A DNA stretch of 64,000 bases from a virus, in IMG/VR virus record IMGVR_UViG_3300022842_000007, positions 28,111-92,110 of that record; one strand, given 5' to 3'. How positions within the stretch are numbered: position 1 is the stretch's first letter; every line of letters begins with the position of its first letter. Below the pieces are notes generated by a model that worked only from the letters and a program-made list of their open reading frames with translations, ran no database searches and was not told where the DNA came from. Both the position numbers and the translations under genes were made by a program. Positions 28 through 63,748 of the stretch are shown here, in pieces.

Positions 28-35
28 GATAAATA
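28..35 (+). promoter_or_regulatory. late promoter, GATAAATA
   Basis: GATAAATA matches the T4 late consensus TATAAATA at seven of eight positions. It ends 5 nt before the ATG at 41, so the expected start point is at or next to the initiation codon. Confidence 0.65.
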
Positions 36-40
36 GTATT

Positions 41-2962
41 ATGGCCATAGATCAAGAAACATACAATACACGACTTTTCAAAAACTTAGATGTGCGAGGT
101 TATAAGCCAGTACCTAAGGATGCAAATAATGAGAGAACCAATCCACAACTTGCAGAAATAATAGAGTTTCAATTCATTAAAGACGGTGAAAACTACGGCA
201 AATGCTGGGCAACCATCGACAAAGCATCACAATTAAAAATATACTACGATACTAAGGTCTCGGAAAGTCCTCCAGGCCAAACAAAAGGAGTAGAATACGA
301 TGACTCCTGGTATGGCTTAATAAAACACCTAAAAAAATGGGCAATGGATAAACAATTATCATTCGATTTGATAGACAATCCAAAACAGATAAACGGTGAC
401 ATGAAGCAAAGGGAACATTATAAAATGAAAGAAAAAACAAATGAAGCGTATCATGCAGTCAACAAAACAACTTCGTACAACGACAACATACCAAATGTAA
501 AAGTTGTTATACAGCATGATAGAGCAGTACAAGAAGGCGAACAACGTTGGAGAAATGTACAGAAAATCTTCGTAGAAAATACAGAAGGTGAAAGATTTGC
601 GGTCCCTACTAGAATGCCTGGCATTGCACGAGTCTATGGTAGACACGTAGCAGAAGGCGGAACACCTTATGATGAACGTGGTAAGCACATCACTGCATTA
701 GTAGAAGAATACACTAAAATGGCGGGATTTGTCCGCGCCACTCGGAAAGGACAATTTAATGAATCAGTTGCGAAACTGATAGCAGAAGGCATCAACCATC
801 ACAAATCATTAAAAGAATCATTGCAAAGAATGCAAAGTCATAGAGGTTACAATCATTACTTCGAGTCTTGGACTCCACCATTAATGGAAGATGAGAGTGA
901 TTCATCCAGCATCGCAGAGATGTTTGCACAAGACACAATTGATCCACGAATTGAAAGTGTTTTACCTATTCTAAACAGATTAAACAGTGGCATCATTAAT
1001 GAAATTGAAGAAGTCAATGAGTTAGATCAGTGGGCTAAAGGAATCACGGAGATTACCGAAGCGCAAGAAGAGCGTCCATACATTTGCGTACATGCGCGAA
1101 AAGGCAGACACGAATGTCATGCGTCATCTTCATACGAAGCCGTTAAGAAAGCCGCGGATCATTGGAAATTAAAGTCAACGGCAGGCATTGATGCTTATCT
1201 AGCAGATGTTACTCATAGTACAGCGTCACTTGAAGAAGATTCTGGTTGTGCATGTGGATGTGGACCAAAAGACAAATGCACATGTGATGCGAGTTGCACT
1301 AAATGCGACTGTGCGAAAGACGACCTGAAAGAAGGGGCAATGTCTGAAATTCACATAGATGCTCAAGAAATGAGCAAAGAAGAATTTACAAAGAAACACC
1401 CCAAATTTGCCAAAGATTATGATTCAATTAATGCGTCTGCTCGTGATGAGAAAAAACCGACACAGGGTGAACTTGCTTTGCAAGGAGAACTTAATTTAAA
1501 AGAAGAATCGGTTTCCAAATTTGACGTTAAAGCTTTTGTCGCTAACCTGGAAAAGCAATATTCAGATGATGAAGGCAGTATTAAGCTTCTTGTTAAACAA
1601 AGAGTGTTAGAACTGAAGGCAGAATACCGAAAAAGTAAGCACGGGGACGCCAACACAGCAAAGAAAATACGGTTTCTTGAGCAATACCTACAACGTGAAG
1701 GGTATGCTCAAGTAGGTACTGCCGCAACGGCAGCCGAGAGAGAAATGAAGAAGCAGATTGGTACATTTGGTAGAGGGAAGATAGACCCCTCAGGAGCTGA
1801 TAATATGGATAGCAAAATTTCAATAGGTAAAGCATTAAGTGGGATTATAGGCATGGCCGCAGAGAGTCTTAACGAGTTCCAAGAAGAAGACTTCGATGAT
1901 GATCGTGAAGATGCACCCAAAAAATACAAACCTATATTAGTTGATATGGAAGGTAATGAAGTAGATTTGCCGTATCATACCAAAGACTTTAGAGGAGATC
2001 CTCTTACAGTAATAGGCTTCGAAGCACCTAGACACACAGCATCATCAGGAAGAATCTATACAGACACTGATAGAAGTTTTTTCCCAAGTGTAGCAAAATT
2101 AAAAATTATAAATCACGAATTTGATGACAATTTAGATGAGGCCGGCATGCCTTCGTCTGTTATTAAAAACAAACAGAGATTGGCTAGTATGTCAGATATT
2201 GAATTAGCAAAACTTCTCGGTAGCAAATCAAGTGAAGAACTAAAACAAATGGCATGGAGACACGGCTACAAAATGAAGTCTAATTACTATATAGACAGAG
2301 TTGCCAGGGGTTCTAAAGTAGATGAATCTGGTACGAAAACAGGTGCGCATGGTTATACTGTCCACACTGACGGTGCCCCATTAAGTTTTGCAGACTGGTG
2401 TAGCGAAAACAAGAGCGAAGATGCAGTATCGACAGATAATCGCAGTAAGGACGAACTAGAAGCATCATATAAAGAATACCGGAATGCAGTATCCTCTGCT
2501 CGCATGCAAGAGGACAATGAATTGTCTGAGATTAGAAAGTTGTCGGGCCATACCAAAGAAGCTAGTGTTGATGAAACGAGCGCAGGTGGCATGGACTTTG
2601 CTGGACATTTTAAAACAGGACCAGCTGGTCAGTGGAAGAATACAGGCAAGACTAAAGGTAAGCCTGCTAAAGTAGGTGACTTGGTTGGTGCAGAAGAAAG
2701 TGCAGATCCCTTGAAAGAAGACGAGATAGAATATGGAGAAGGTGATCTTGTAATCCTCAGAGGACAATCATACTACTTGCATATTGATGGAAACGGTACT
2801 ATATGGGCTGAGGATGATGACGGCGGAAGCTATGAGTTTATCCCAGGCACTGAACAACACCATGATCCTGCAGGTGAGAAAGAAGAAGAGATCGATGATA
2901 TTGATTTCGATCTAAACGAAGCAAATGACTTGCTCAATATTATCAAAAACATCAGAATATGA
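41..2962 (+). CDS. large late protein of unknown function, Cys-cluster containing
   Basis: This 973-residue acidic protein is probably virion-associated, since it follows a late promoter. I do not recognise a named family. A central segment (about residues 350-400) has a short basic, His/Cys-bearing module (ICVHARKGRHECHA) that I associate with large proteins of marine T4-like phages. It is followed near residues 405-430 by a dense cysteine cluster (CACGCG, then repeated CxC and CxxC), which could bind metal. The rest is hydrophilic with long charged stretches. The start is the ATG 5 nt after the late promoter, with no Shine-Dalgarno sequence. The stop overlaps the next gene in ATGA. Function is unknown; a structural or maturation role is inference from expression class only. 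Confidence 0.8.
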   Translation: MAIDQETYNTRLFKNLDVRGYKPVPKDANNERTNPQLAEIIEFQFIKDGENYGKCWATIDKASQLKIYYDTKVSESPPGQTKGVEYDDSWYGLIKHLKKWAMDKQLSFDLIDNPKQINGDMKQREHYKMKEKTNEAYHAVNKTTSYNDNIPNVKVVIQHDRAVQEGEQRWRNVQKIFVENTEGERFAVPTRMPGIARVYGRHVAEGGTPYDERGKHITALVEEYTKMAGFVRATRKGQFNESVAKLIAEGINHHKSLKESLQRMQSHRGYNHYFESWTPPLMEDESDSSSIAEMFAQDTIDPRIESVLPILNRLNSGIINEIEEVNELDQWAKGITEITEAQEERPYICVHARKGRHECHASSSYEAVKKAADHWKLKSTAGIDAYLADVTHSTASLEEDSGCACGCGPKDKCTCDASCTKCDCAKDDLKEGAMSEIHIDAQEMSKEEFTKKHPKFAKDYDSINASARDEKKPTQGELALQGELNLKEESVSKFDVKAFVANLEKQYSDDEGSIKLLVKQRVLELKAEYRKSKHGDANTAKKIRFLEQYLQREGYAQVGTAATAAEREMKKQIGTFGRGKIDPSGADNMDSKISIGKALSGIIGMAAESLNEFQEEDFDDDREDAPKKYKPILVDMEGNEVDLPYHTKDFRGDPLTVIGFEAPRHTASSGRIYTDTDRSFFPSVAKLKIINHEFDDNLDEAGMPSSVIKNKQRLASMSDIELAKLLGSKSSEELKQMAWRHGYKMKSNYYIDRVARGSKVDESGTKTGAHGYTVHTDGAPLSFADWCSENKSEDAVSTDNRSKDELEASYKEYRNAVSSARMQEDNELSEIRKLSGHTKEASVDETSAGGMDFAGHFKTGPAGQWKNTGKTKGKPAKVGDLVGAEESADPLKEDEIEYGEGDLVILRGQSYYLHIDGNGTIWAEDDDGGSYEFIPGTEQHHDPAGEKEEEIDDIDFDLNEANDLLNIIKNIRI

Positions 2963-11689: not shown

Positions 11690-12277
11690 ATGGCTAAGGC
11701 GAAGGTTCCGATTGAAGAGAAGTTTGAGAAACAAGAGTTTGACTTATTTGAGGCAATTACTGCTATCGATAACAAAGATTATGGTTATTACGATAGACTA
11801 ACTCCAGAACAGCAAAGGAAGTTTGTTCCTTATATGATGTTACATTGGATCAGTGCGGTAAACGGTTCGCGAAAAATGGCACAGTATTATTTACAGAGTG
11901 TAGACTATCATGCTAACAAGTACGTGTTTAATGAAAATGTGATCAAGCATCCTAAACTACAGTGGTTGATGTTGTGTTCAGCCAGTCCCGGTATTGGTAA
12001 ACAATATCATGCATGGATACCGCAAATTAAAGCAGGTGTATCTAAGTTGAGAGACAAAGCAATACCAAAAGATATTAAAACGTATTTTAAAAAGATATAT
12101 CCTGCACTAACAGTGGGAGATTTGGCAGAAATGTCAGAAGCATATTGCGATCAACATAAACGCAAAATGTATTTGGCAAGCAAATTCCCTGAATTAAAAT
12201 TTGATGAGGTAGAATTACTGAGTGACATCGTTACCGAAAATGACATCGAAGAATACGAAAAAGAACTCGGCAACTAA
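11690..12277 (+). CDS. 62: clamp-loader small subunit gp62
   Basis: The 195-residue protein resembles T4 gp62 (187 residues), the small subunit that joins gp44 to load the sliding clamp. An N-terminal motif, FDLFEAITAIDNKD, parallels the T4 FFEIIGAINNK region. The middle segment, with YMMLHWISA and later GKQYHAWIP, parallels the T4 helix and its GKRYGKWAK motif. The large subunit gp44 is found at 59.3 kb, so the two subunits are about 47 kb apart rather than adjacent as in T4. Confidence 0.75.
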   Translation: MAKAKVPIEEKFEKQEFDLFEAITAIDNKDYGYYDRLTPEQQRKFVPYMMLHWISAVNGSRKMAQYYLQSVDYHANKYVFNENVIKHPKLQWLMLCSASPGIGKQYHAWIPQIKAGVSKLRDKAIPKDIKTYFKKIYPALTVGDLAEMSEAYCDQHKRKMYLASKFPELKFDEVELLSDIVTENDIEEYEKELGN

Positions 12278-22391: not shown

Positions 22392-22399
22392 ACTAAATA
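22392..22399 (+). promoter_or_regulatory. variant late promoter, ACTAAATA, leaderless spacing
   Basis: ACTAAATA ends exactly 5 nt before the ATG at 22405, the same spacing as at several GATAAATA promoters in this window. Confidence 0.55.
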
Positions 22400-22404
22400 G
22401 TCAT

Positions 22405-22851
22405 ATGAAAAGAATTTCATGTCATACTCTATTTGATATTACCAACACCAATGTGTTGAATCGTTCAAAGCCTGTGGGAGATAATATCGAGTTGTGGACG
22501 ATGCAACGAAATTCACAAGCAAATTTTGACACAATATTACAGTGTATAAGTCTTCGTGGCACACCAGACTTACTACAATATCCTCATAAAATAGAATTTG
22601 ATCCATACTTCGCAACCAAACATTTTGGTTTTTTAATAGACACGTTTAAAGATTTCTGGCATTGGCGATTTGATTTCTCGGTTCAACAGGACTCTGTATT
22701 TGATAACGGCATTGATTCTCTTGGTTATTTGATAAACGATTGTCACGAGATACCTATGCTAACCGTCGGCACAGAATGCCTAAGCAGTTTACCTAACTTC
22801 TTAGACTCTACACCAGAACTAGCCAACATTTACTTCGAGGAGCATGTATGA
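22405..22851 (+). CDS. conserved phage protein, unknown
   Basis: The 148-residue protein starts MKRISCHTLFDITNTNVLNRS. I associate this opening, with the following RNSQANFDTILQ and WRFDFSVQQDSVF segments, with a conserved marine T4-like phage family of unknown function. No Shine-Dalgarno site exists because the late promoter is only 5 nt upstream. It overlaps the next gene by ATGA. Confidence 0.75.
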   Translation: MKRISCHTLFDITNTNVLNRSKPVGDNIELWTMQRNSQANFDTILQCISLRGTPDLLQYPHKIEFDPYFATKHFGFLIDTFKDFWHWRFDFSVQQDSVFDNGIDSLGYLINDCHEIPMLTVGTECLSSLPNFLDSTPELANIYFEEHV

Positions 22852-31119: not shown

Positions 31120-31533
31120 CTATAAGGAAGTTAATACTTTCATTTTTTCTACTACATTATCAATATTAATAGTGGAAAACAAGCCAGGATGTAATGGTTT
31201 GGGATACATGTTGTTTCCTACCCAAGCGTAACCACAATGCTCATCGTTTAAGATAGGTGTAAATTCATTCTCTATTGCACAAAAGAATGTATGATATGCA
31301 AATGTATTATTGACAAACTTTTGAATTGGTACTAATTTAAAATCATCAGACCAAATTTGAATTTCTTCGTTGCATTCTCTTTTTAACCCGATAAGCAAAG
31401 TTTCGTTCTTTTCGATCTTGCCGCCTGGAATAGACCATGTAGGATTCTTGTTCTCATTTCTAAGTAGATATAAAAATCGATGAGTAGATTTACTGTAAAA
31501 AAAGATGCCAGCGGATTGATTAACAATGATCAT
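31120..31533 (-). CDS. Nudix hydrolase
   Basis: The 137-residue protein has a Nudix box at about residues 38-57 (GKIEKNE, then RECNEE), matching GX5EX7REUXEE; the later Gly of the full signature is replaced by Gln. It would hydrolyse a nucleoside diphosphate derivative, such as an oxidised nucleotide, ADP-ribose or NAD-like compound; the substrate cannot be told. The start codon lies 5 nt from an AATAAATA element on the same strand, so the mRNA may be leaderless. Confidence 0.85.
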   Translation of the reverse strand: MIIVNQSAGIFFYSKSTHRFLYLLRNENKNPTWSIPGGKIEKNETLLIGLKRECNEEIQIWSDDFKLVPIQKFVNNTFAYHTFFCAIENEFTPILNDEHCGYAWVGNNMYPKPLHPGLFSTINIDNVVEKMKVLTSL

Positions 31534-31538
31534 ACAGT

Positions 31539-31546
31539 TATTTATT
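31539..31546 (-). promoter_or_regulatory. variant late promoter (AATAAATA, minus strand)
   Basis: Read on the minus strand the sequence is AATAAATA, ending 5 nt before the Nudix ATG, the same spacing as at five other late genes here. Confidence 0.45.
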
Positions 31547-31563: not shown

Positions 31564-33162
31564 TTAAATAACTACGCTGTAATCACCTTCACCATAGTAA
31601 CCTTCGTAAGACTTCATCCATGCCGCCACCTTTGCTGGATGGTCAGGATCTTCTGGTGTTGCCGCCCATCTATATTGAATCTGTGTAGTTAGATTAGTTA
31701 CGTAATCGACTTGATCTTCATTTACATTTGCATCATATGAAACAAACCATTTCGAAATATCTGCGTTGAATTGTAGAATATCATTTGCTTGTGCTGTAAC
31801 AACATTATACACTGTACCGGTACCAGCTGGCTGTACATTATTCATCGTGAAGATAGTGCCGATTGTGTTTGTTGCCGCACTATACTGAGCAAAATTAGAT
31901 GTACCTACACTAGCAATCATGTATTTTGATCCAGAGACCATAGCAGTTGCAATTATTGCTTGGGGTATTTCAGATTCTCCAGTGACACTTCCTATGATTG
32001 TCCCCCAAGAGGATGAATCACTTCCTATACTGTCTACTAACAAATATCTAACTCCGATTACTGGTCCTGGCAGACCGGCATTCGGTCCAGTGATCTGTGG
32101 ATTAATAACACTGTTAACTGGTGTCAATGTGTTTGCCGGCAATGTATCTGGATCAACACTAAATATCAAGTATCTATCATCCAGCGGGTCAACTACTATT
32201 GTACCTACAATTTCATGGTCCATGTATGGATTTACTAGCCATATCTGAGAAATACCTGGACGATATGCTCCGTATACTTGTAATAGTGCAGTCCAAAAGA
32301 TACTAGTATCTGGATTGACTGGTGCATCTAATGAATCATTGGGTACTAAGGCAGTTGTTTCGTTCTGTGGCAGTAACTGCAATGAGTTGCCTATAAACAA
32401 TAACTGATAACCGTACGGTGATACTTTCTGTCTAGTTCCCATAAGCAAGTCATCGTTATCCATATCTTCAATTGTCTTGCCGTCAAAAATAGAAGCAATA
32501 ACTTTGTTAATGACACCATACTTTCTAAGTTTTGCCGATGTTGTCAACCATATGGGTATGTAAAATTTCCAGGACATCACATCGATTGGATTTCCTGTGC
32601 CTTGCGGAATACTACGAGATGAGAATGTTAACCCATCTTGATAAACGACTGACAATGAAGTCCAATCTACAAAATTATCGGTGCTTTGAATTTCTAAACT
32701 TGGATTGAATAATGTTCCTAACTGTTCAATTATTTCTAGTTTTTGCTGATAGTTAGTTGTCCAAATATCAACTTGTACTCTCAATGTATACGGTACCGGC
32801 ATTAGTTTCTCAACAGTGAATGCCTGACCCTGTGTTGTCTCGTAAGAGCCAGTAGCACTGTCAAACGATCTTTGTCTTATGTTTTGTTTCTCTACGAAAT
32901 AAGGCTCTTGTGTGCGTTTCTGATCATATTCGAGTCCATTAATAAAATATGTCATTAGTGGAGCCGAAGGCAGATTGCTTGCAGAATTATTCGCCATAAT
33001 AGTAGCAGCCTGCCTACTCGCATCACCATATTGAACTGGTACACGCCGTAAGATGAGATTACCGTTTGGATCCTTTCCGTTAGAAACATACCATTCACTA
33101 AAGATTTTTTGAAACTGTAATAAAAATCTTCTTATCTGATTATCGTAAAAATATTGTGCCAT
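31564..33162 (-). CDS. 15: tail sheath stabiliser gp15, enlarged
   Basis: The N-terminal 230 residues match T4 gp15, the tail-completion protein that caps sheath and tube at the neck. The opening FYDNQIRRFLLQFQKIFSEW parallels the T4 FYNSSFRRYATLMGDLFSN, and later WTTNYQQKLEIIEQLGTLFNPS matches the YEDDMFQIVEQILPYFQP region. At 532 residues it is about twice T4 gp15 (272). The extra C-terminal half includes a YMIASVGTSNF...GTIFTMNN...GTGTV module also present twice in the protein at 28.9 kb. It follows gp14 with overlapping start and stop. Confidence 0.85.
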   Translation of the reverse strand: MAQYFYDNQIRRFLLQFQKIFSEWYVSNGKDPNGNLILRRVPVQYGDASRQAATIMANNSASNLPSAPLMTYFINGLEYDQKRTQEPYFVEKQNIRQRSFDSATGSYETTQGQAFTVEKLMPVPYTLRVQVDIWTTNYQQKLEIIEQLGTLFNPSLEIQSTDNFVDWTSLSVVYQDGLTFSSRSIPQGTGNPIDVMSWKFYIPIWLTTSAKLRKYGVINKVIASIFDGKTIEDMDNDDLLMGTRQKVSPYGYQLLFIGNSLQLLPQNETTALVPNDSLDAPVNPDTSIFWTALLQVYGAYRPGISQIWLVNPYMDHEIVGTIVVDPLDDRYLIFSVDPDTLPANTLTPVNSVINPQITGPNAGLPGPVIGVRYLLVDSIGSDSSSWGTIIGSVTGESEIPQAIIATAMVSGSKYMIASVGTSNFAQYSAATNTIGTIFTMNNVQPAGTGTVYNVVTAQANDILQFNADISKWFVSYDANVNEDQVDYVTNLTTQIQYRWAATPEDPDHPAKVAAWMKSYEGYYGEGDYSVVI

Positions 33163-34910
33163 TATGTTCCGTCACTTGGTGGATTGTCATCTGGTGCTAA
33201 GTCTAAGAGTGAAGATAGCGGTTGTGCAGATGCTATGTTCCCTTCATCATTATTTATGTAAATATTATCATCGTTATTAATAAATCCAGATTGCAATGAT
33301 TTATCGACCGAGGTATAGCCTGTTTCAGTTCTAACATTCTCGTCCACTCTTAACCAGAGTGTTCCTGACCAACGATACAATACATTCGGTGAGTAATCGA
33401 TTCGTAAGAAGTAATATCCTACTGTAGGTGATGATGGGAATGAGATTCCTGCACCAGTCGGCAAGCCATTAGGGGCAGTACCATCACCAGTTAAGTATCC
33501 TGATGTGTAACCAAATGACTTTGGCGTAGAACGAGCAATGAATTGGAATCTAGGATCACAATCTGCTCTATAGTCCATTGTGTTAGGACCATATGGCTCA
33601 GTACCTGTGAAGCCTGACTGTTCAGGATCTTGGTCTGCCGTTGCATAAGTGTTATCAGCCGTACCATATGGACCAGTAACTGGTCCAGAAATATTAACTG
33701 CTAATAATTTAGTACCTTCTAGTGCTCCTGAGCCTGTAGCAGACATCTCTGGTGCTTCAATCATTATCGATAAGCTTGCTTCTACGAATTTAGCAATCAC
33801 CTGATCTAGGTCAATATCTTGACCCTTCATTTTAGACTGCATAACTTCAAGCACTTCTTTTGGTATCTTTATGCCAGTTGATGCGTTTCTATAGTTAGCA
33901 CTTTTCATCGTCACTACTTGGCCGGTTGCTGATAATGGTGAATTGCCTGGCATCCATGCTCGAACATCAGTCGGCGGTGCCGGTTGATTCTCTTTCTGAG
34001 ACAAAACACCATTTGCTTCGTACAATCCATAAGTAGGGATAATGTAAAACTTCGAGGAGTCATATCCTGCTTTCGGTAGAATCCGATCTGCTTCTTTTAG
34101 TACAGCATCATTGATTCTAATATTTTCGTTGTAACGGCCTAATACATCTTTTAATGTATTAGATGCGTCTAGTTCCCAATATAGATCAGGGTCAGTTGCA
34201 CCAGGTTTAGTACCAGCTGGTACTTCTTGCAATGATGTGTAATTTTTATCACCGAACGTAATTACATATCCAGGTGGATAATCTGATGTTATATCCCAAT
34301 CTCCTAGGTAGTTGTCGATGTCGGTTGGTTGTTCAAGGATATTAGAGAACTCTTGGCTATCAACCATTTTCTCACATTTAATACGCCAAAGATGCGGGTA
34401 CCAATCAGACGCAAATCCTTCACTTGCGTAGTTCGAATCCGTAACTTGATAAAATCTTCTCAGTGCAGTTGGGAATGTCTCGTTAAGACCATCGTAGTCA
34501 AGCAAGTGAGGTAACTCAATGACATCACCGACCATTAATTTTCTACCAACGATGTCAATCATATTATTGTAATGAATAGTTACAAAAATAGTATCATTAC
34601 TTAAGAATAAACCGAATTGGCTCAGGTCAAAATCTAAGTTCTGTACATTATAATGACCACGTAATCTGTAAATATCTTTTGCATACTTTCTATCTCTGTT
34701 CTCTAGGAACAGTAAATCTTGTATGTTATTTGGGTTTAATGCATCATATTGTGGTTGACTGAAATCTGCTGAGGCACCTTGGTCCTCAGGACCAAGATAT
34801 TTGTGTACGAACAAGTCCGTACCGCCCACAGTCATTTGTTCAGAAATATTTCTGTCGAAAAAACGGTAGTCGTTTTGTTTTTCTTCTCTGTATAAACTGA
34901 GTCTAGGCAT
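33162..34910 (-). CDS. 14: neck protein gp14, enlarged
   Basis: The protein from ATG 34910 has 582 residues against 256 in T4 gp14. An opening RFFDRNISEQMTVGGTDLFVHKYLGP and following LSQFGLFLSNDTIFVTIH match gp14 of marine T4-like phages, which joins the neck ring to the tail. The C-terminal half has a module (TVGYYFLRIDYSPNVLYRWSG) common to phage neck and baseplate proteins. An upstream in-frame ATG would add 44 residues, but the late promoter lies 5 nt before ATG 34910, so that start is preferred. It heads the minus-strand block. Confidence 0.85.
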   Translation of the reverse strand: MPRLSLYREEKQNDYRFFDRNISEQMTVGGTDLFVHKYLGPEDQGASADFSQPQYDALNPNNIQDLLFLENRDRKYAKDIYRLRGHYNVQNLDFDLSQFGLFLSNDTIFVTIHYNNMIDIVGRKLMVGDVIELPHLLDYDGLNETFPTALRRFYQVTDSNYASEGFASDWYPHLWRIKCEKMVDSQEFSNILEQPTDIDNYLGDWDITSDYPPGYVITFGDKNYTSLQEVPAGTKPGATDPDLYWELDASNTLKDVLGRYNENIRINDAVLKEADRILPKAGYDSSKFYIIPTYGLYEANGVLSQKENQPAPPTDVRAWMPGNSPLSATGQVVTMKSANYRNASTGIKIPKEVLEVMQSKMKGQDIDLDQVIAKFVEASLSIMIEAPEMSATGSGALEGTKLLAVNISGPVTGPYGTADNTYATADQDPEQSGFTGTEPYGPNTMDYRADCDPRFQFIARSTPKSFGYTSGYLTGDGTAPNGLPTGAGISFPSSPTVGYYFLRIDYSPNVLYRWSGTLWLRVDENVRTETGYTSVDKSLQSGFINNDDNIYINNDEGNIASAQPLSSLLDLAPDDNPPSDGT

Positions 34911-34915
34911 ATATA

Positions 34916-34923
34916 TATTTATC
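34916..34923 (-). promoter_or_regulatory. late promoter, GATAAATA (minus strand)
   Basis: Read on the minus strand it is GATAAATA, ending 5 nt before the gp14 ATG. Confidence 0.65.
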
Positions 34924-37228: not shown

Positions 37229-37846
37229 ATGATAGTAGGTATTACAGGCTTGATGGGCAGTGGTAAAGATACCGCCGCTGATTATCTCATCGACGTTCAT
37301 GGTTTCACTAGACTCAGTTATGCAGGCGCCCTCAAAGATTCTATTTCCTCAATTTTTGGTTGGGACCGAGAAATGTTAGAAGGTACCACACCACGCAGTA
37401 GAGAATGGCGAGAAGAAGTCGATGTATGGTGGTCAAATAGATTACAAATGCCAGATTTAACTCCTCGTTGGGTTTTGCAGTATTGGGGAACAGAAGTAGC
37501 TAGGCGCACCTTTCACGATGATATCTGGATAGCATCTGTAGATAATAAAATGCGAGCTACAACCGACAATATTGTCATCACTGATTGTCGTTTTAAAAAT
37601 GAATTTACTTCAATCAAAAATGCTGGTGGTTTCACTATTCGAGTTGAACGAGGTGAACAACCGCTATGGCTACCATTTGCAAGAGATTATAATCTGACAA
37701 GTAACCCACAAGCATTGGCTGAGTTAACCAATTTCAATGTACATGCAAGTGAATACAGCGCCATTGGCGTAGAGTACGATTATAAGATTGATAACAATGG
37801 CACAATAGACGAGTTGCATAAAAACATAGAGCGCCGATTGTTTTAA
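37229..37846 (+). CDS. 1: deoxynucleoside monophosphate kinase (T4 gp1-like)
   Basis: The 205-residue protein has a P-loop GLMGSGKDT (residues 7-15) and matches T4 gp1-type dNMP kinase, which phosphorylates dNMPs from host DNA breakdown to dNDPs. WVLQYWGTEVARR and ITDCRFKNE are characteristic downstream segments, the latter being a Walker B-like core. It has its own sigma70-like promoter inside a late region. Confidence 0.88.
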   Translation: MIVGITGLMGSGKDTAADYLIDVHGFTRLSYAGALKDSISSIFGWDREMLEGTTPRSREWREEVDVWWSNRLQMPDLTPRWVLQYWGTEVARRTFHDDIWIASVDNKMRATTDNIVITDCRFKNEFTSIKNAGGFTIRVERGEQPLWLPFARDYNLTSNPQALAELTNFNVHASEYSAIGVEYDYKIDNNGTIDELHKNIERRLF

Positions 37847-38193
37847 TAATCTACAGTTAAATCTCCACGTATCCACAATACGTTCTTTTTCTTAACAACC
37901 TCGACGCAGTTTAAGCAGATCGTTCTTAGATTTGTAAAATCTGTGTTTTGTGGGTTACCATCTATATGAAACACTGTCATTTGGCTAGAGTATAAACCCT
38001 GAAAGCCACAAAGAAAACAAGTAGTATCTTTCTTGTATCCTGCTTTTTGCCACAAGTATACAGTCGCCCTCTTAGGATTATTCTTCCCACAGGTATCGCA
38101 TATGCTCCGATAATGTCGAGTGCCGTTCTTTATATAATTGACGGCACATACATTTTTGTTGCATTTTTTGCATATTGGTCTTGACACTGACAT
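37843..38193 (-). CDS. zinc-ribbon HNH-like protein
   Basis: The 116-residue minus-strand protein has three CxxC pairs (CKKC, CDTC, CFLC) and a final FHIDGNPQNTDFTNLRTICLNC. That is an HNH-nuclease-type core in which H-x-D-G-N, N and N-L-x-x-x-C are retained. It could be a small DNA nuclease or a DNA-binding zinc protein. It ends 4 nt into the dNMP kinase gene. The start codon is 5 nt from a CATAAATA element on its strand. Confidence 0.72.
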   Translation of the reverse strand: MSVSRPICKKCNKNVCAVNYIKNGTRHYRSICDTCGKNNPKRATVYLWQKAGYKKDTTCFLCGFQGLYSSQMTVFHIDGNPQNTDFTNLRTICLNCVEVVKKKNVLWIRGDLTVDY

Positions 38194-38198
38194 ATACG

Positions 38199-38206
38199 TA
38201 TTTATG
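38199..38206 (-). promoter_or_regulatory. variant late promoter (CATAAATA, minus strand)
   Basis: Read on the minus strand it is CATAAATA, ending 5 nt before the ATG of the zinc-ribbon gene, the spacing shared by other leaderless-type late genes. Confidence 0.5.
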
Positions 38207-38251
38207 AAATACCTTCGAAGGTGTCGTTATCCGCTATTTTTTTCATTCCGA

Positions 38252-38259
38252 GATAAATA
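38252..38259 (+). promoter_or_regulatory. late promoter, GATAAATA, of gp18
   Basis: It ends 5 nt before the ATG of a 19-codon leader frame and 55 nt before the sheath ATG. Confidence 0.68.
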
Positions 38260-38264
38260 ATAGT

Positions 38265-38324
38265 ATGAAAAACACAGGGTGTAACCCTCACAATCATACA
38301 AAAGGACTAATATTATGGCACTAA
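38265..38324 (+). CDS. possible leader peptide upstream of gp18
   Basis: A 19-residue frame (MKNTGCNPHNHTKGLILWH) starts exactly 5 nt after the late promoter and ends 10 nt inside gp18, out of frame. If translated from a leaderless mRNA, ribosomes would terminate next to the gp18 start and its AAGGA site, which would couple the two. It may also be chance. Confidence 0.4.
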   Translation: MKNTGCNPHNHTKGLILWH

Positions 38325-41964: not shown

Positions 41965-41972
41965 GATAAATA
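41965..41972 (+). promoter_or_regulatory. late promoter, GATAAATA, of gp19
   Basis: It lies 35 nt before the tube ATG with AGGAG between, immediately after the gp18 terminator, so the tube has an independent transcript. Confidence 0.72.
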
Positions 41973-42721: not shown

Positions 42722-42729
42722 GATAAATA
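42722..42729 (+). promoter_or_regulatory. late promoter, GATAAATA
   Basis: It is 21 nt before the ATG at 42751 with AGGAG between. Confidence 0.7.
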
Positions 42730-45646: not shown

Positions 45647-46190
45647 TTTTCGTGCTGCCGGCATTAAGCTAAATACATATATGACTAACAAACTTGAAGA
45701 ACTTTTTGATCTAGCAGTAAGTGAAAGAAATAATGAAGGCAATGAACTGGCGGAACCGTTACCTGATCAAACCGGAGACGTTACTCTGGAAGCTATAAAC
45801 AGTCTCGAAAAGATAGATCAGGCACTGCCAACTGTTAGAGGATTAGACGCATCTGATGCGGAGATGGATGAACTGTCTGATATGGCAAAAGATAGTTACA
45901 GAGATTTGATGGATTTAGGCATGCAAGTAGACTCTCGTTTCAGTGGAGACATTTTCAGTGTAGCTAGTACCATGTTAAGTCATGCTATCACTGCTAAAAC
46001 TGCCAAACTAAACAAGAAATTAAAGATGATTGATTTGCAATTAAAAAAAGTCACATTAGAGCAACGTCAATCAAAAGTAGATGAAAAACTAAACAACATA
46101 CCTCTAGGCGAGATCGGAGGGGACGGTGGTCAGAATCTGTCTCGCAATGAATTACTGCGTCTTTTAAATCCGAAAATCTCAGAGGAATGA
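45615..46190 (+). CDS. 16: probable small terminase subunit gp16
   Basis: The 191-residue protein has a central helical pair, MAKDSYRDLMDLGMQV and FSVASTMLSHAITAKTAKLNKKLKMIDLQLKK. This parallels the coiled-coil oligomerisation region of T4-type gp16 (the ARENFYNLVEKG and EVLAQTIKNVADVTDKLIDLQKK segments). The gp16 ring recognises phage DNA and stimulates the gp17 motor. Length is near T4 gp16 (164). No large terminase follows in the window, so the call rests on the coiled-coil pattern and neighbours gp4 and gp18. Confidence 0.6.
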   Translation: MTTVSTRPQNDFRAAGIKLNTYMTNKLEELFDLAVSERNNEGNELAEPLPDQTGDVTLEAINSLEKIDQALPTVRGLDASDAEMDELSDMAKDSYRDLMDLGMQVDSRFSGDIFSVASTMLSHAITAKTAKLNKKLKMIDLQLKKVTLEQRQSKVDEKLNNIPLGEIGGDGGQNLSRNELLRLLNPKISEE

Positions 46191-49429: not shown

Positions 49430-52400
49430 ATGGCACAAAGAAATATTGACTTCGGCGCATTCCCAGACGATCCAGATGCAGATGCGATACGCTCGGCATT
49501 CGAAAAAGTACAATTAAATTTTACAGAAGTATTTGCGGGTCTAGGTGATCAAGCAGTTGTCTCTGTCAATAAAACAGCGGGCGCAGGTGTAACAGTAAAT
49601 CAATCTACTGGTAACGTAGTTGTTACTGCCAACCTCGCATGTGTGCAGATGACCACCACTACATTACAATTAGGGCAATCTGGTCCTGGTAATGGTGTAG
49701 CTGGCGGTACTATTATACTTAATGCTTCTACCCAACAAGCAACGATTGATTTACCAACAAACATTGTTACAGGTCTAGTAAATCTGACTGCGACAGGAAA
49801 TGTCACTGGTGGCAATGTCAATGCGACTTCTGGTGGTGGTAATTTTCAATGGGTTAAGGGTGATGGAGCAAATTTAACAAATATCGTAGCGTTAGTAGCA
49901 CAAACCGTATCAAACGCGGCACAGCCAAATATTACATCAGTGGGAACATTATCTGGATTAGCAGTAACAGGCAATATTACTTCGGGTAATGTAGCAGGTA
50001 CAGGTGGGGTATTCACGTATTTCTCGGGAGATGGCGCAAATTTAAGTTTTATTGCAGGTGGTAACGTAACAGGTACTGTACCATTTGCAACAACAGCGAA
50101 CGCAGTATCAGGGGCTAATGTCTCAGGTGAAGTAGATTTTGCTCAAGTAGCAAATGCAGTAGCAGGCGCAAATGTCTCGGGTACTGTTCCTTTAGCGACA
50201 TCGGCCACGACAGCAGGCACAGTAACAACTGCCGCACAACCAAATATTACATCAACGGGTACACTCACTGTATTAAATTCAAGTGGCACGATAACTGCTC
50301 CTGCATTTACAGCGAACACTGGTATCTTTACTGGTGATGGTGCGGGCTTAACCAATGTTACTGGCGCAAACGTCTCAGGCGCTGTTCCGTTTGCAGGAAC
50401 AGCAAATGCAGTAGCAGGCGCAAATGTCTCGGGTGAAGTTGATTTTGCACAAGTAGCAAACGCAGTAGCAGGGGCAAATGTCTCAGGTGAAGTAACCTTC
50501 GCCGCAACAGCAAATGCAGTAGCAGGCGCAAATGTAACAGGTACTGTTTCTTTAGCATCTTTGGCAACGTTCGCAACCACAGCAAATGCAGTAGCAGGAG
50601 CTAATGTCTCAGGTACAGTCCCAGTAGCGACAAGTGCTACATCAGCAAACGCAGTAGCAGGAGCAAATGTCTCAGGTACTGTTCCATTAGCAACTACAGC
50701 AGGTACTGTAACAACTGCGGCTCAGCCAAATATTACTTCTGTAGGTACTTTAACCGCATTAACTGTGACAGCAGATATTGTTGGTAGTGTTACGGGTAGC
50801 GCGGCTACTATAACAACGGCCGCACAACCAAATATTACTTCTGTAGGTACATTATCTACACTAGCAGTTACTGGAAATATTGCATCAGGTAATGTTGCAG
50901 GCACAGGTGGAGTATTCACGTATGTCTCGGGAGATGGAGCGAACTTAACAAACCTCTCAGTATCAGCAGGATCAAGCATTGTCAATGGATCTAGTAACGC
51001 AACAGTTGATGCTAGTGGTGCATTCAGAGTTTCGACTGGTGGAACAGCAAATTTATTAGTAGTACAAGATACAGGTGTAACAGCAATAGTAACAGGTTCT
51101 ATGTCAGTAACAGGTGGATTAGAAGCCATAAACTTTAATAGTACATCAAACTTAGGCCCAGTAGCTAATGTAACAATCACTGGTGGAACCAGTGGTGGCT
51201 TCTTAAAGACAAATGGTTCAGGTACCTTATCGTTCGACACTGCAACACTAGTTCCAGCACAAGGTGCAGACACACAGATCATATTTAATGATGGTGGCTC
51301 TACATATGCTGGTAACACAGGCTTTACGTTTAATAAAGCATCTGGTGATGTTGCTGTCCCAGGTAATATCAATGTACCTGCAGGAAAGAATATAGTAGCA
51401 GGTGGCAATGTTAATGCTACTTTACTCGGTGGAGCTTTATCAACTGCCGCACAACCTAACATTACATCAGTGGGTACATTGACATCATTGATTTTAGGCG
51501 GTGCATTTAACACAAACAGCAATATCATTACTAACGCTGGTAATATCGAAATATCTAGCGGCTCGGGAACATTCAAAGGTAATGGCGGTGGATTAACAAA
51601 TTTACCAGGTGCTAACGTATCAGGTGCTGTCCCATTAGCAACAAGTGCTACATCAGCGAACGCAGTAGCAGGTGCCAATGTCTCAGGTGAAGTTGATTTT
51701 GCACAAGTAGCAAACGCAGTAGCAGGTGCCAATGTCTCAGGTACAGTCGCACTAGCAACTACAGCAACTACCGCAAGTACAGCGAACGCAGTAGCAGGTG
51801 GTAACGTATCAGGTGCAGTCGCATTAGCATCAAGTGCTACATCAGCAAACGCAGTAGCAGGGGCAAATGTCTCAGGTGCAGTCGCATTAGCATCAAGTGC
51901 TACATCAGCAAACGCAGTAGCAGGTGGTAACGTATCAGGTGCAGTAAGTTTCGCAACAACAGCAAACGCAGTAGCAGGTGGTAACGTATCAGGTGCAGTA
52001 AGTTTCGCAAGTACAGCGAACGCAGTAGCGGGTGCCAACGTATCTGGTCAAGTAGCAAATTCACTTGTCTCAGGTACGGTATATACAGCGGCACAACCCA
52101 ACGTTACATCAGTTGGTACATTGCTGTTGCATTCAAATACCGATACTGTCTCGGCCGCCGGAACGACACAAGGCGATGCAACACAATTAACAACTGAGAT
52201 AAACAGAGTTACAACTGTCGGTGCAAGTTCAGGTGTTAAACTACCGAATGCTGTCGGTGGATTAATAATTTTTATTACTAATACATCAGCAACTACATTG
52301 GCAGTATATCCTAACACGAGCGATATAATTAATTCACTCGGTACTAACGCATCGTACTCGCATCCTGCAGGCGGAACATTACAGTATATCTGTACCAACG

Positions 52401-63041: not shown

Positions 63042-63049
63042 GATAAATA
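63042..63049 (+). promoter_or_regulatory. late promoter, GATAAATA, first of a tandem pair
   Basis: It stands 64 bp upstream of a second identical octamer, in the 188-nt gap between divergent phoH and the next late gene. The gap also has a repeated CTCATATGT (around 62974 and 63013) of unknown meaning. Confidence 0.5.
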
Positions 63050-63105: not shown

Positions 63106-63113
63106 GATAAATA
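63106..63113 (+). promoter_or_regulatory. late promoter, GATAAATA, leaderless spacing
   Basis: It ends exactly 5 nt before the ATG at 63119. Confidence 0.68.
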
Positions 63114-63118
63114 CTAGT

Positions 63119-63748
63119 ATGAGCGAAGGAATAACAGGCGACAATCTTGCTTCAGAGCAAGCAAATGCATTTTTTAAGAACATTGACTTTATAAGCATTG
63201 TAGACACTATTAAAAATATCTACATGTCAGACGGGTCGATGAATACTCTTTTGGATTTCGAAAGGGTCTTGGATGAAGCAGATGTGTATGCCTTCAGAAA
63301 TTGGATCAATGGTGAATTGGTGCAAGGCCCAGACATTGGAAGGTACGCATGTACATGTACTTTCATGTGGCCTTACGCCATGATGCCAGATCCAAGAGCC
63401 ACATTAAGATTATCTGCAATCGGTTGTAGTGTTAAGATAATGAAATCAAAAATTGAAGTCCCTGTCGCAGTCGAATCATATGAAGACTTTCAAGCAGGAA
63501 GTCGTTATCCTAAAATGCAAGAAAACAAAGTTTGGTTTGTGCAAATACAAATACCGTTTGATCTTATGGATGATATTAAAGAGGGTTCAGTTGATCTCGC
63601 TGATGAAACAATTGATTTATCAGAAATCGAGGACGCATATGACGCAGACCTTGACCAAGCAAAACCTGAAGATGCAGAAGATTCATCAGCCGCAATAGAT
63701 GATGTAGCTGGCCAAGATGAAAATGCAGACGGAGCATTCCAAATATAA
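63119..63748 (+). CDS. late protein, unknown, possible virion component
   Basis: The 209-residue protein has a compact N-terminal domain (to residue 150) with VYAFRNWINGELVQGPDIGRYACTCTFMWPYAMMPDP and a strand-rich middle, then an acidic disordered tail. I associate it with late genes of marine T4-like phages but cannot name it. No Shine-Dalgarno site is visible, consistent with the leaderless arrangement. Its stop overlaps the next start as TAATG. Confidence 0.75.
   Translation: MSEGITGDNLASEQANAFFKNIDFISIVDTIKNIYMSDGSMNTLLDFERVLDEADVYAFRNWINGELVQGPDIGRYACTCTFMWPYAMMPDPRATLRLSAIGCSVKIMKSKIEVPVAVESYEDFQAGSRYPKMQENKVWFVQIQIPFDLMDDIKEGSVDLADETIDLSEIEDAYDADLDQAKPEDAEDSSAAIDDVAGQDENADGAFQI

Follow-up and report, generated by a model that had tools for sequence, protein, structure and literature searches.

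A T4-type late octamer in register with the start codon points to leaderless late mRNAs in a marine jumbo phage lineage

In an uncultured marine jumbo phage lineage, a subset of late genes carries a T4-type late promoter octamer exactly 5 nt before the start codon and no Shine-Dalgarno (SD) sequence, and the likely reading of this arrangement, a strong inference made without mapped RNA 5' ends, is that gp55-dependent promoters give rise there to leaderless late mRNAs. The stretch of DNA analysed (hereafter, the window) comprises 64 kb, bases 28111-92110, of a 92,110-base (92-kb) IMG/VR virus contig. In the mechanism proposed here, the octamer, a -10-like element, would be fixed, in that subset of late genes, at the distance that makes the A of the start codon the first transcribed base, and ribosomes would have to engage these mRNAs by their 5'-terminal AUG, a mode of initiation that is inferred. 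Other late genes, including those for tail sheath and tail tube, would be read from an identical octamer through a longer spacer (about 20-55 nt) with an SD, so that one late promoter type would run two translation-initiation modes. Phage leaderless mRNAs are mostly known from single genes, but in the widespread marine phages described here an entire class of late genes appears to be leaderless, with the promoter-ATG register held over long evolutionary distances. The elements are known and their arrangement is new, in the sense that no earlier report of leaderless late genes from T4-type late promoters, in T4-type phages, cyanophages or jumbo phages, was found in the literature searched (most subscription-journal papers and preprints lay outside it).

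The late octamer of the contig is N[A/C]TAAATA, chiefly GATAAATA; the T4-type late octamer form NNTAAATA is present, variable at -13/-12, while T4's own TATAAATA was rejected as the window's octamer, its four matches being no more than chance would give. The T4 late octamer is numbered from -13 to -6 (PMC2988020), and with the octamer at those positions and a 5-nt spacer the A of the ATG falls at +1, an exact position that is inferred here. A preceding reading of the letters without database searches (the sequence-only reading) had placed the T4 transcription start about 6 nt past the octamer, which agrees with that numbering, the sixth base being +1. Among the 55 sites of the 92-kb contig, eight are followed at exactly 5 nt by the start of an ORF, against 0.22 expected from jittering the sites by 14-60 nt, and that count was reached in none of 2000 trials. 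The relatives behave likewise (five genes at 5 nt in G001, eight in G002, seven in G005 and four in G008, each with p<=0.0005), in six genomes the 2000 jitter trials never matched the observed count, and backwards-pattern controls gave 0-1 matches against 11-18 real ones in the three jumbo genomes tested. In the contig, 8 of the 11 ATGs at +1 begin an ORF that reaches 60 aa, and no GTG or TTG start was found at 5 nt in the contig itself, G001, G002, G005 or G008.

The absence of an SD is equally plain: SD matches at the eight 5-nt genes of the contig never exceed 3 nt, and an SD of at least 4 nt precedes 1 of 33 leaderless starts vs 77 of 92 leadered ones. The base before the ATG is T in 26 of the 33 leaderless starts. 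When ORFs that reach 60 aa are considered, the octamer-ATG distances are bimodal: they cluster tightly at 5 nt (4-5 nt in some relatives), are almost absent between 6 nt and about 16-19 nt, and spread over about 18-36 nt in a second group, the one in which 77 of 92 starts have an SD. This is the fit expected for two classes of mRNA, one leaderless and the other with a leader long enough to hold an SD. In the leadered promoters of the contig, moreover, the fifth base after the octamer is T in 61% and the sixth is A in 61%, a preference that weakens in more distant genomes and is consistent with a start point common to both classes.

The sequence-only reading had listed seven ATGs exactly 5 nt past the octamer, taken them as gene starts without an SD and inferred mRNAs beginning at the start codon, a mode held to be not typical of T4. 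The spacing held for all seven, whose octamers all end in TAAATA, and six of them open real ORFs (973, 148, 137, 582, 116 and 209 aa), whereas the seventh, at 38265, fails; the lack of an SD held for the gene starts, and the list was incomplete, having missed 45681 on the plus strand. The inference on the mRNAs is supported by sequence, in the absence of RNA 5' end data, for one class of late genes and not for all, because divergent orthologues keep the spacing, no SD is present, hardly any distance falls between 6 and 19 nt and about half of the genes come first after a strand switch. Statistics of octamer-ATG distances in the contig and its relatives, the check that had been suggested, gave the strong excess at 5 nt described above, and a lack of conservation in relatives, which would have spoken against the idea, did not occur for most genes, 22405 being an exception.

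The first gene of the window (41..2962, plus strand, 973 aa) is preceded by GATAAATA at 28..35 with the spacer GTATT; its PA5oct orthologue, EST35_0206, is a structural protein detected by mass spectrometry (MS), and of 32 orthologue loci, 30 have a spacing of 5 nt and the other 2 one of 4 nt. The 148-aa ORF of unknown function at 22405..22851 (plus) follows the variant octamer ACTAAATA (22392..22399), and its 5-nt arrangement is kept only in G005 among the relatives examined, not in G001, G002 or G007. On the minus strand, AATAAATA (31539..31546) lies 5 nt before a NUDIX hydrolase gene (31120..31533, 137 aa; 5 nt in 57 of 69 orthologue loci), GATAAATA (34916..34923, spacer TATAT, in a 125-nt gap behind a divergent gene) before a gene for a virion structural protein of phrog_11591 (33162..34910, 582 aa; 5 nt in 73 of 84 loci, 4 nt in 5) and CATAAATA (38199..38206, divergent from the sheath promoter) before a 116-aa ORF with weak similarity to HNH nucleases (37843..38193; 5 nt in 32 of 38 loci, 4 nt in 3). 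The overlooked plus-strand case, with the sequence GCTAAATACATATATG, has its octamer GCTAAATA at 45668..45675, 5 nt before a 169-aa ORF of unknown function (45681..46190, phrog_16202) whose orthologues in G002, G005 and G007 show spacings of 4-5 nt. Finally, GATAAATA at 63106..63113 (plus, spacer CTAGT) precedes the gene for a virion structural protein of phrog_12928 (63119..63748, 209 aa; 5 nt in 23 of 25 loci), and a further 5-nt case, with an ORF of 407 aa, lies upstream of the window at contig position 12165. Genes 34910, 38193 and 63119 have a divergent neighbour upstream and are the first on their own strand.

Conservation of this register is shown by the orthologues. The TAAATA core is invariant in the upstream regions of the 5-nt orthologues of genes 41, 31533, 34910, 38193 and 63119, while the first one or two letters of the octamer and the letters of the spacer vary, and its length does not, apart from one sub-lineage with a 4-nt spacer at several of these genes. 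Across 32 distinct upstream regions of gene 34910, the mean top-base frequency is 0.57 at -60 to -14 vs 1.00 for TAAATA, and the same stretch upstream of gene 63119 is as poorly conserved (0.57). Orthologous proteins align from the Met at 5 nt onward while the DNA upstream diverges. Clean switching between modes is also shown: gene 34910 has an 18-nt spacer with an SD instead in G001 and G002 and a longer spacer with an SD in PA5oct, and a 59-aa gene is leaderless in G001 and G002 and leadered in G005. Such mode-switching orthologues provide natural gene pairs for comparing leaderless and SD-dependent initiation. Separately, two orthologues of gene 34910 (L082 732 and L083 6001) lack an ATG and show an ATT codon after GGAGG, and a non-AUG start with an SD is possible in them.

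Regarding the lineage, the virion proteins of the window share 26-54% identity with those of jumbo phages of the PA5oct, Atu_ph07, GAP32 and RaK2 kind, and a gp55-like late sigma factor is encoded in the relatives G001 (316 kb) and G002 (300 kb), with matches to phrog_234 and phrog_12791 at E values down to 1.9e-62. No gp55 was found in the window's own contig, which at 92 kb is a fragment. A gp45-type sliding clamp was searched for with phrog_223, which matched nowhere, as did its positive control, and no phage-encoded ribosomal protein bS21, looked for as a translation aid, was found. In jumbo phages of the RaK2/GAP32/CBB type, structural genes preceded by an ATAAATA motif have been described together with a gp55-like sigma factor, and a gp45-type clamp and a gp33 co-activator were likewise not found by the authors (PMC5259590); the motif, the sigma factor and homologous virion proteins are shared with the window's lineage, but GAP32 differs in having no gene at 5 nt.

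T4 resembles the window's lineage in that its octamer spans -13 to -6 and varies mainly in its first two bases, and Aeh1 has been described with A/G-C at -13/-12 (PMC2988020). The late genes of T4, however, have leaders and SDs, and the single 5-nt match in this phage falls inside mobB. Since no real gene lies at 5 nt in T4, Syn9 or GAP32, which show the leadered distance group only, leaderless late genes as a trait of all T4-type phages are ruled out, and the description of the mode as not typical of T4 held. AR9 was rejected as a precedent, its leaders measuring 26-491 nt (PMC5312081). Known leaderless mRNAs, such as that of lambda cI, have a 5'-terminal AUG and no SD, features shared with the genes of the window (whose 5' ends are predicted); the difference is that a whole promoter class is involved here.

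From sequence alone, many late genes are inferred to have the leaderless arrangement both in widespread giant phages of the sea that have not been cultured and, as a separate case, in phages that infect the ocean bacterium SAR11. In the cultured SAR11 phage HTVC008M the 5-nt spacing occurs at 11 genes where 0.20 would be expected, and all ten of those checked are annotated starts in the public record; Mosig (11 vs 3 in controls) and G009 show a similar excess. HTVC008M and Mosig, pelagimyophages with SAR11 hosts, differ from the window's lineage in being smaller T4-type phages (Kyanoviridae) and not jumbo. In HTVC008M, a 26-nt gap between two divergent starts contains both octamers and is too short for either promoter to produce a leader. 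By annotated product names, its leaderless genes include those of the gp2, gp4, gp48, gp53 and gp3 types, and its major head protein gene has an SD; related contigs retain the arrangement before the gp2-type gene, a few of them with a spacer of 8 nt. Late-promoter prediction in pelagimyophages has been attempted and reported as unsuccessful (PMC7029224), a failure of standard prediction that the leaderless arrangement may help to explain, and the joint annotation of start codons and promoters becomes feasible in uncultured phages. PA5oct has two 5-nt candidates, a count not above chance, and the only convincing one is EST35_0222, an annotated structural protein detected by MS whose start lies exactly at +1; together with HTVC008M, this cultured example makes the leaderless model testable now. 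The annotated start of PA5oct EST35_0271 (L241, 180252-180267) lies 15 nt upstream, overlapping the GATAAATA octamer; under the leaderless model it would be 180252.

Several other explanations could be put forward. Translation might take place mainly from longer transcripts with SD-less leaders, produced from a distal promoter or by read-through, the proximal octamer being minor or unused. A second, distal GATAAATA (63042..63049, plus) does lie upstream of gene 63119, the tandem pair being kept in relatives and the distal octamer conserved about 53-64 nt further up, so that a second mRNA, leadered but without an SD, is possible there; in relatives the second octamer lies 58-60 nt from the ATG, and its purpose is unexplained. 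About half of the genes, among them 41, 22405, 31533 and 45681, also have a same-strand neighbour upstream, which makes read-through possible. Against this, genes 34910 and 38193 come first after a strand switch, with the proximal octamer as the only one on their strand within 200 nt, the two divergent starts of HTVC008M are separated by just 26 nt, and a non-functional promoter would not stay in register with the ATG, as shown by the conserved spacing of exactly 5 nt and the avoidance of 6-19 nt. This explanation is therefore regarded as unlikely.

Even less support exists for the ATG being part of an extended promoter consensus, a TATG-like initiator from which translation would sometimes not start: neither at 38265 nor at contig position 49993 (21883 of the window) does the ATG at +1 lead into a gene reaching 60 aa, and T at -1 with A at +1 is common in leadered promoters too, but ORFs of at least that length open at 8 of the 11 such ATGs of the contig, and the alignment of orthologous proteins from the Met onward, over diverging upstream DNA, makes the idea very unlikely. 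A chance coincidence of octamer and ATG, suggested by an AT-rich core that is common in AT-rich genomes, is all but excluded by the jitter trials in six genomes, the backwards-pattern controls and the conservation in dozens of orthologue loci. Leaderless late transcription thus remains the preferred reading.

In two separate lineages, the jumbo PA5oct relatives and the pelagimyophages, leaders with an SD may serve the bulk virion proteins and the leaderless mode the minor virion and accessory proteins, possibly setting protein amounts or suiting the ribosome pool of the host or of late infection, a proposal with as much to be said against it as for it. Any effect on protein output is inferred, and the idea that leaderless genes encode the low-copy proteins is no more than an untested suggestion.

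The leadered class is illustrated by three plus-strand GATAAATA promoters, that of the tail-sheath gene (38252..38259; gene start at 38315, SD AAAGGA) and those of two tail-tube genes (41965..41972, with a 35-nt spacer containing an SD before 42008, and 42722..42729, with a 21-nt spacer containing an SD before 42751). The ATG at 38265 was rejected as a leaderless gene start, since it opens only a 19-codon frame, the start of the tail-sheath gene lying further down at 38315 behind a separate SD; in L054 and L057 the frame is cut to two codons, and in L079 and L084 the ATG is lost. This frame (38265-38324), whose first base is the sheath promoter's predicted +1 and which overlaps the start of the sheath gene, changes length in-frame in many relatives and is broken in others. 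The leader of the sheath mRNA also contains a short hairpin, AGGGTGTAACCCT (38276-38288), kept in relatives with changes in its pairing (AGGGTTGTTACCCT, AGGTGGTAAACCT). Between the two divergent late promoters of this region, just upstream of the octamer of the minus-strand gene 38193, lies the palindrome CCTTCGAAGG (38212-38221), kept in G005-G007 and L084 and replaced by another one, CCTTTGCAAAGG, in G001 and G002; the site may be an operator.
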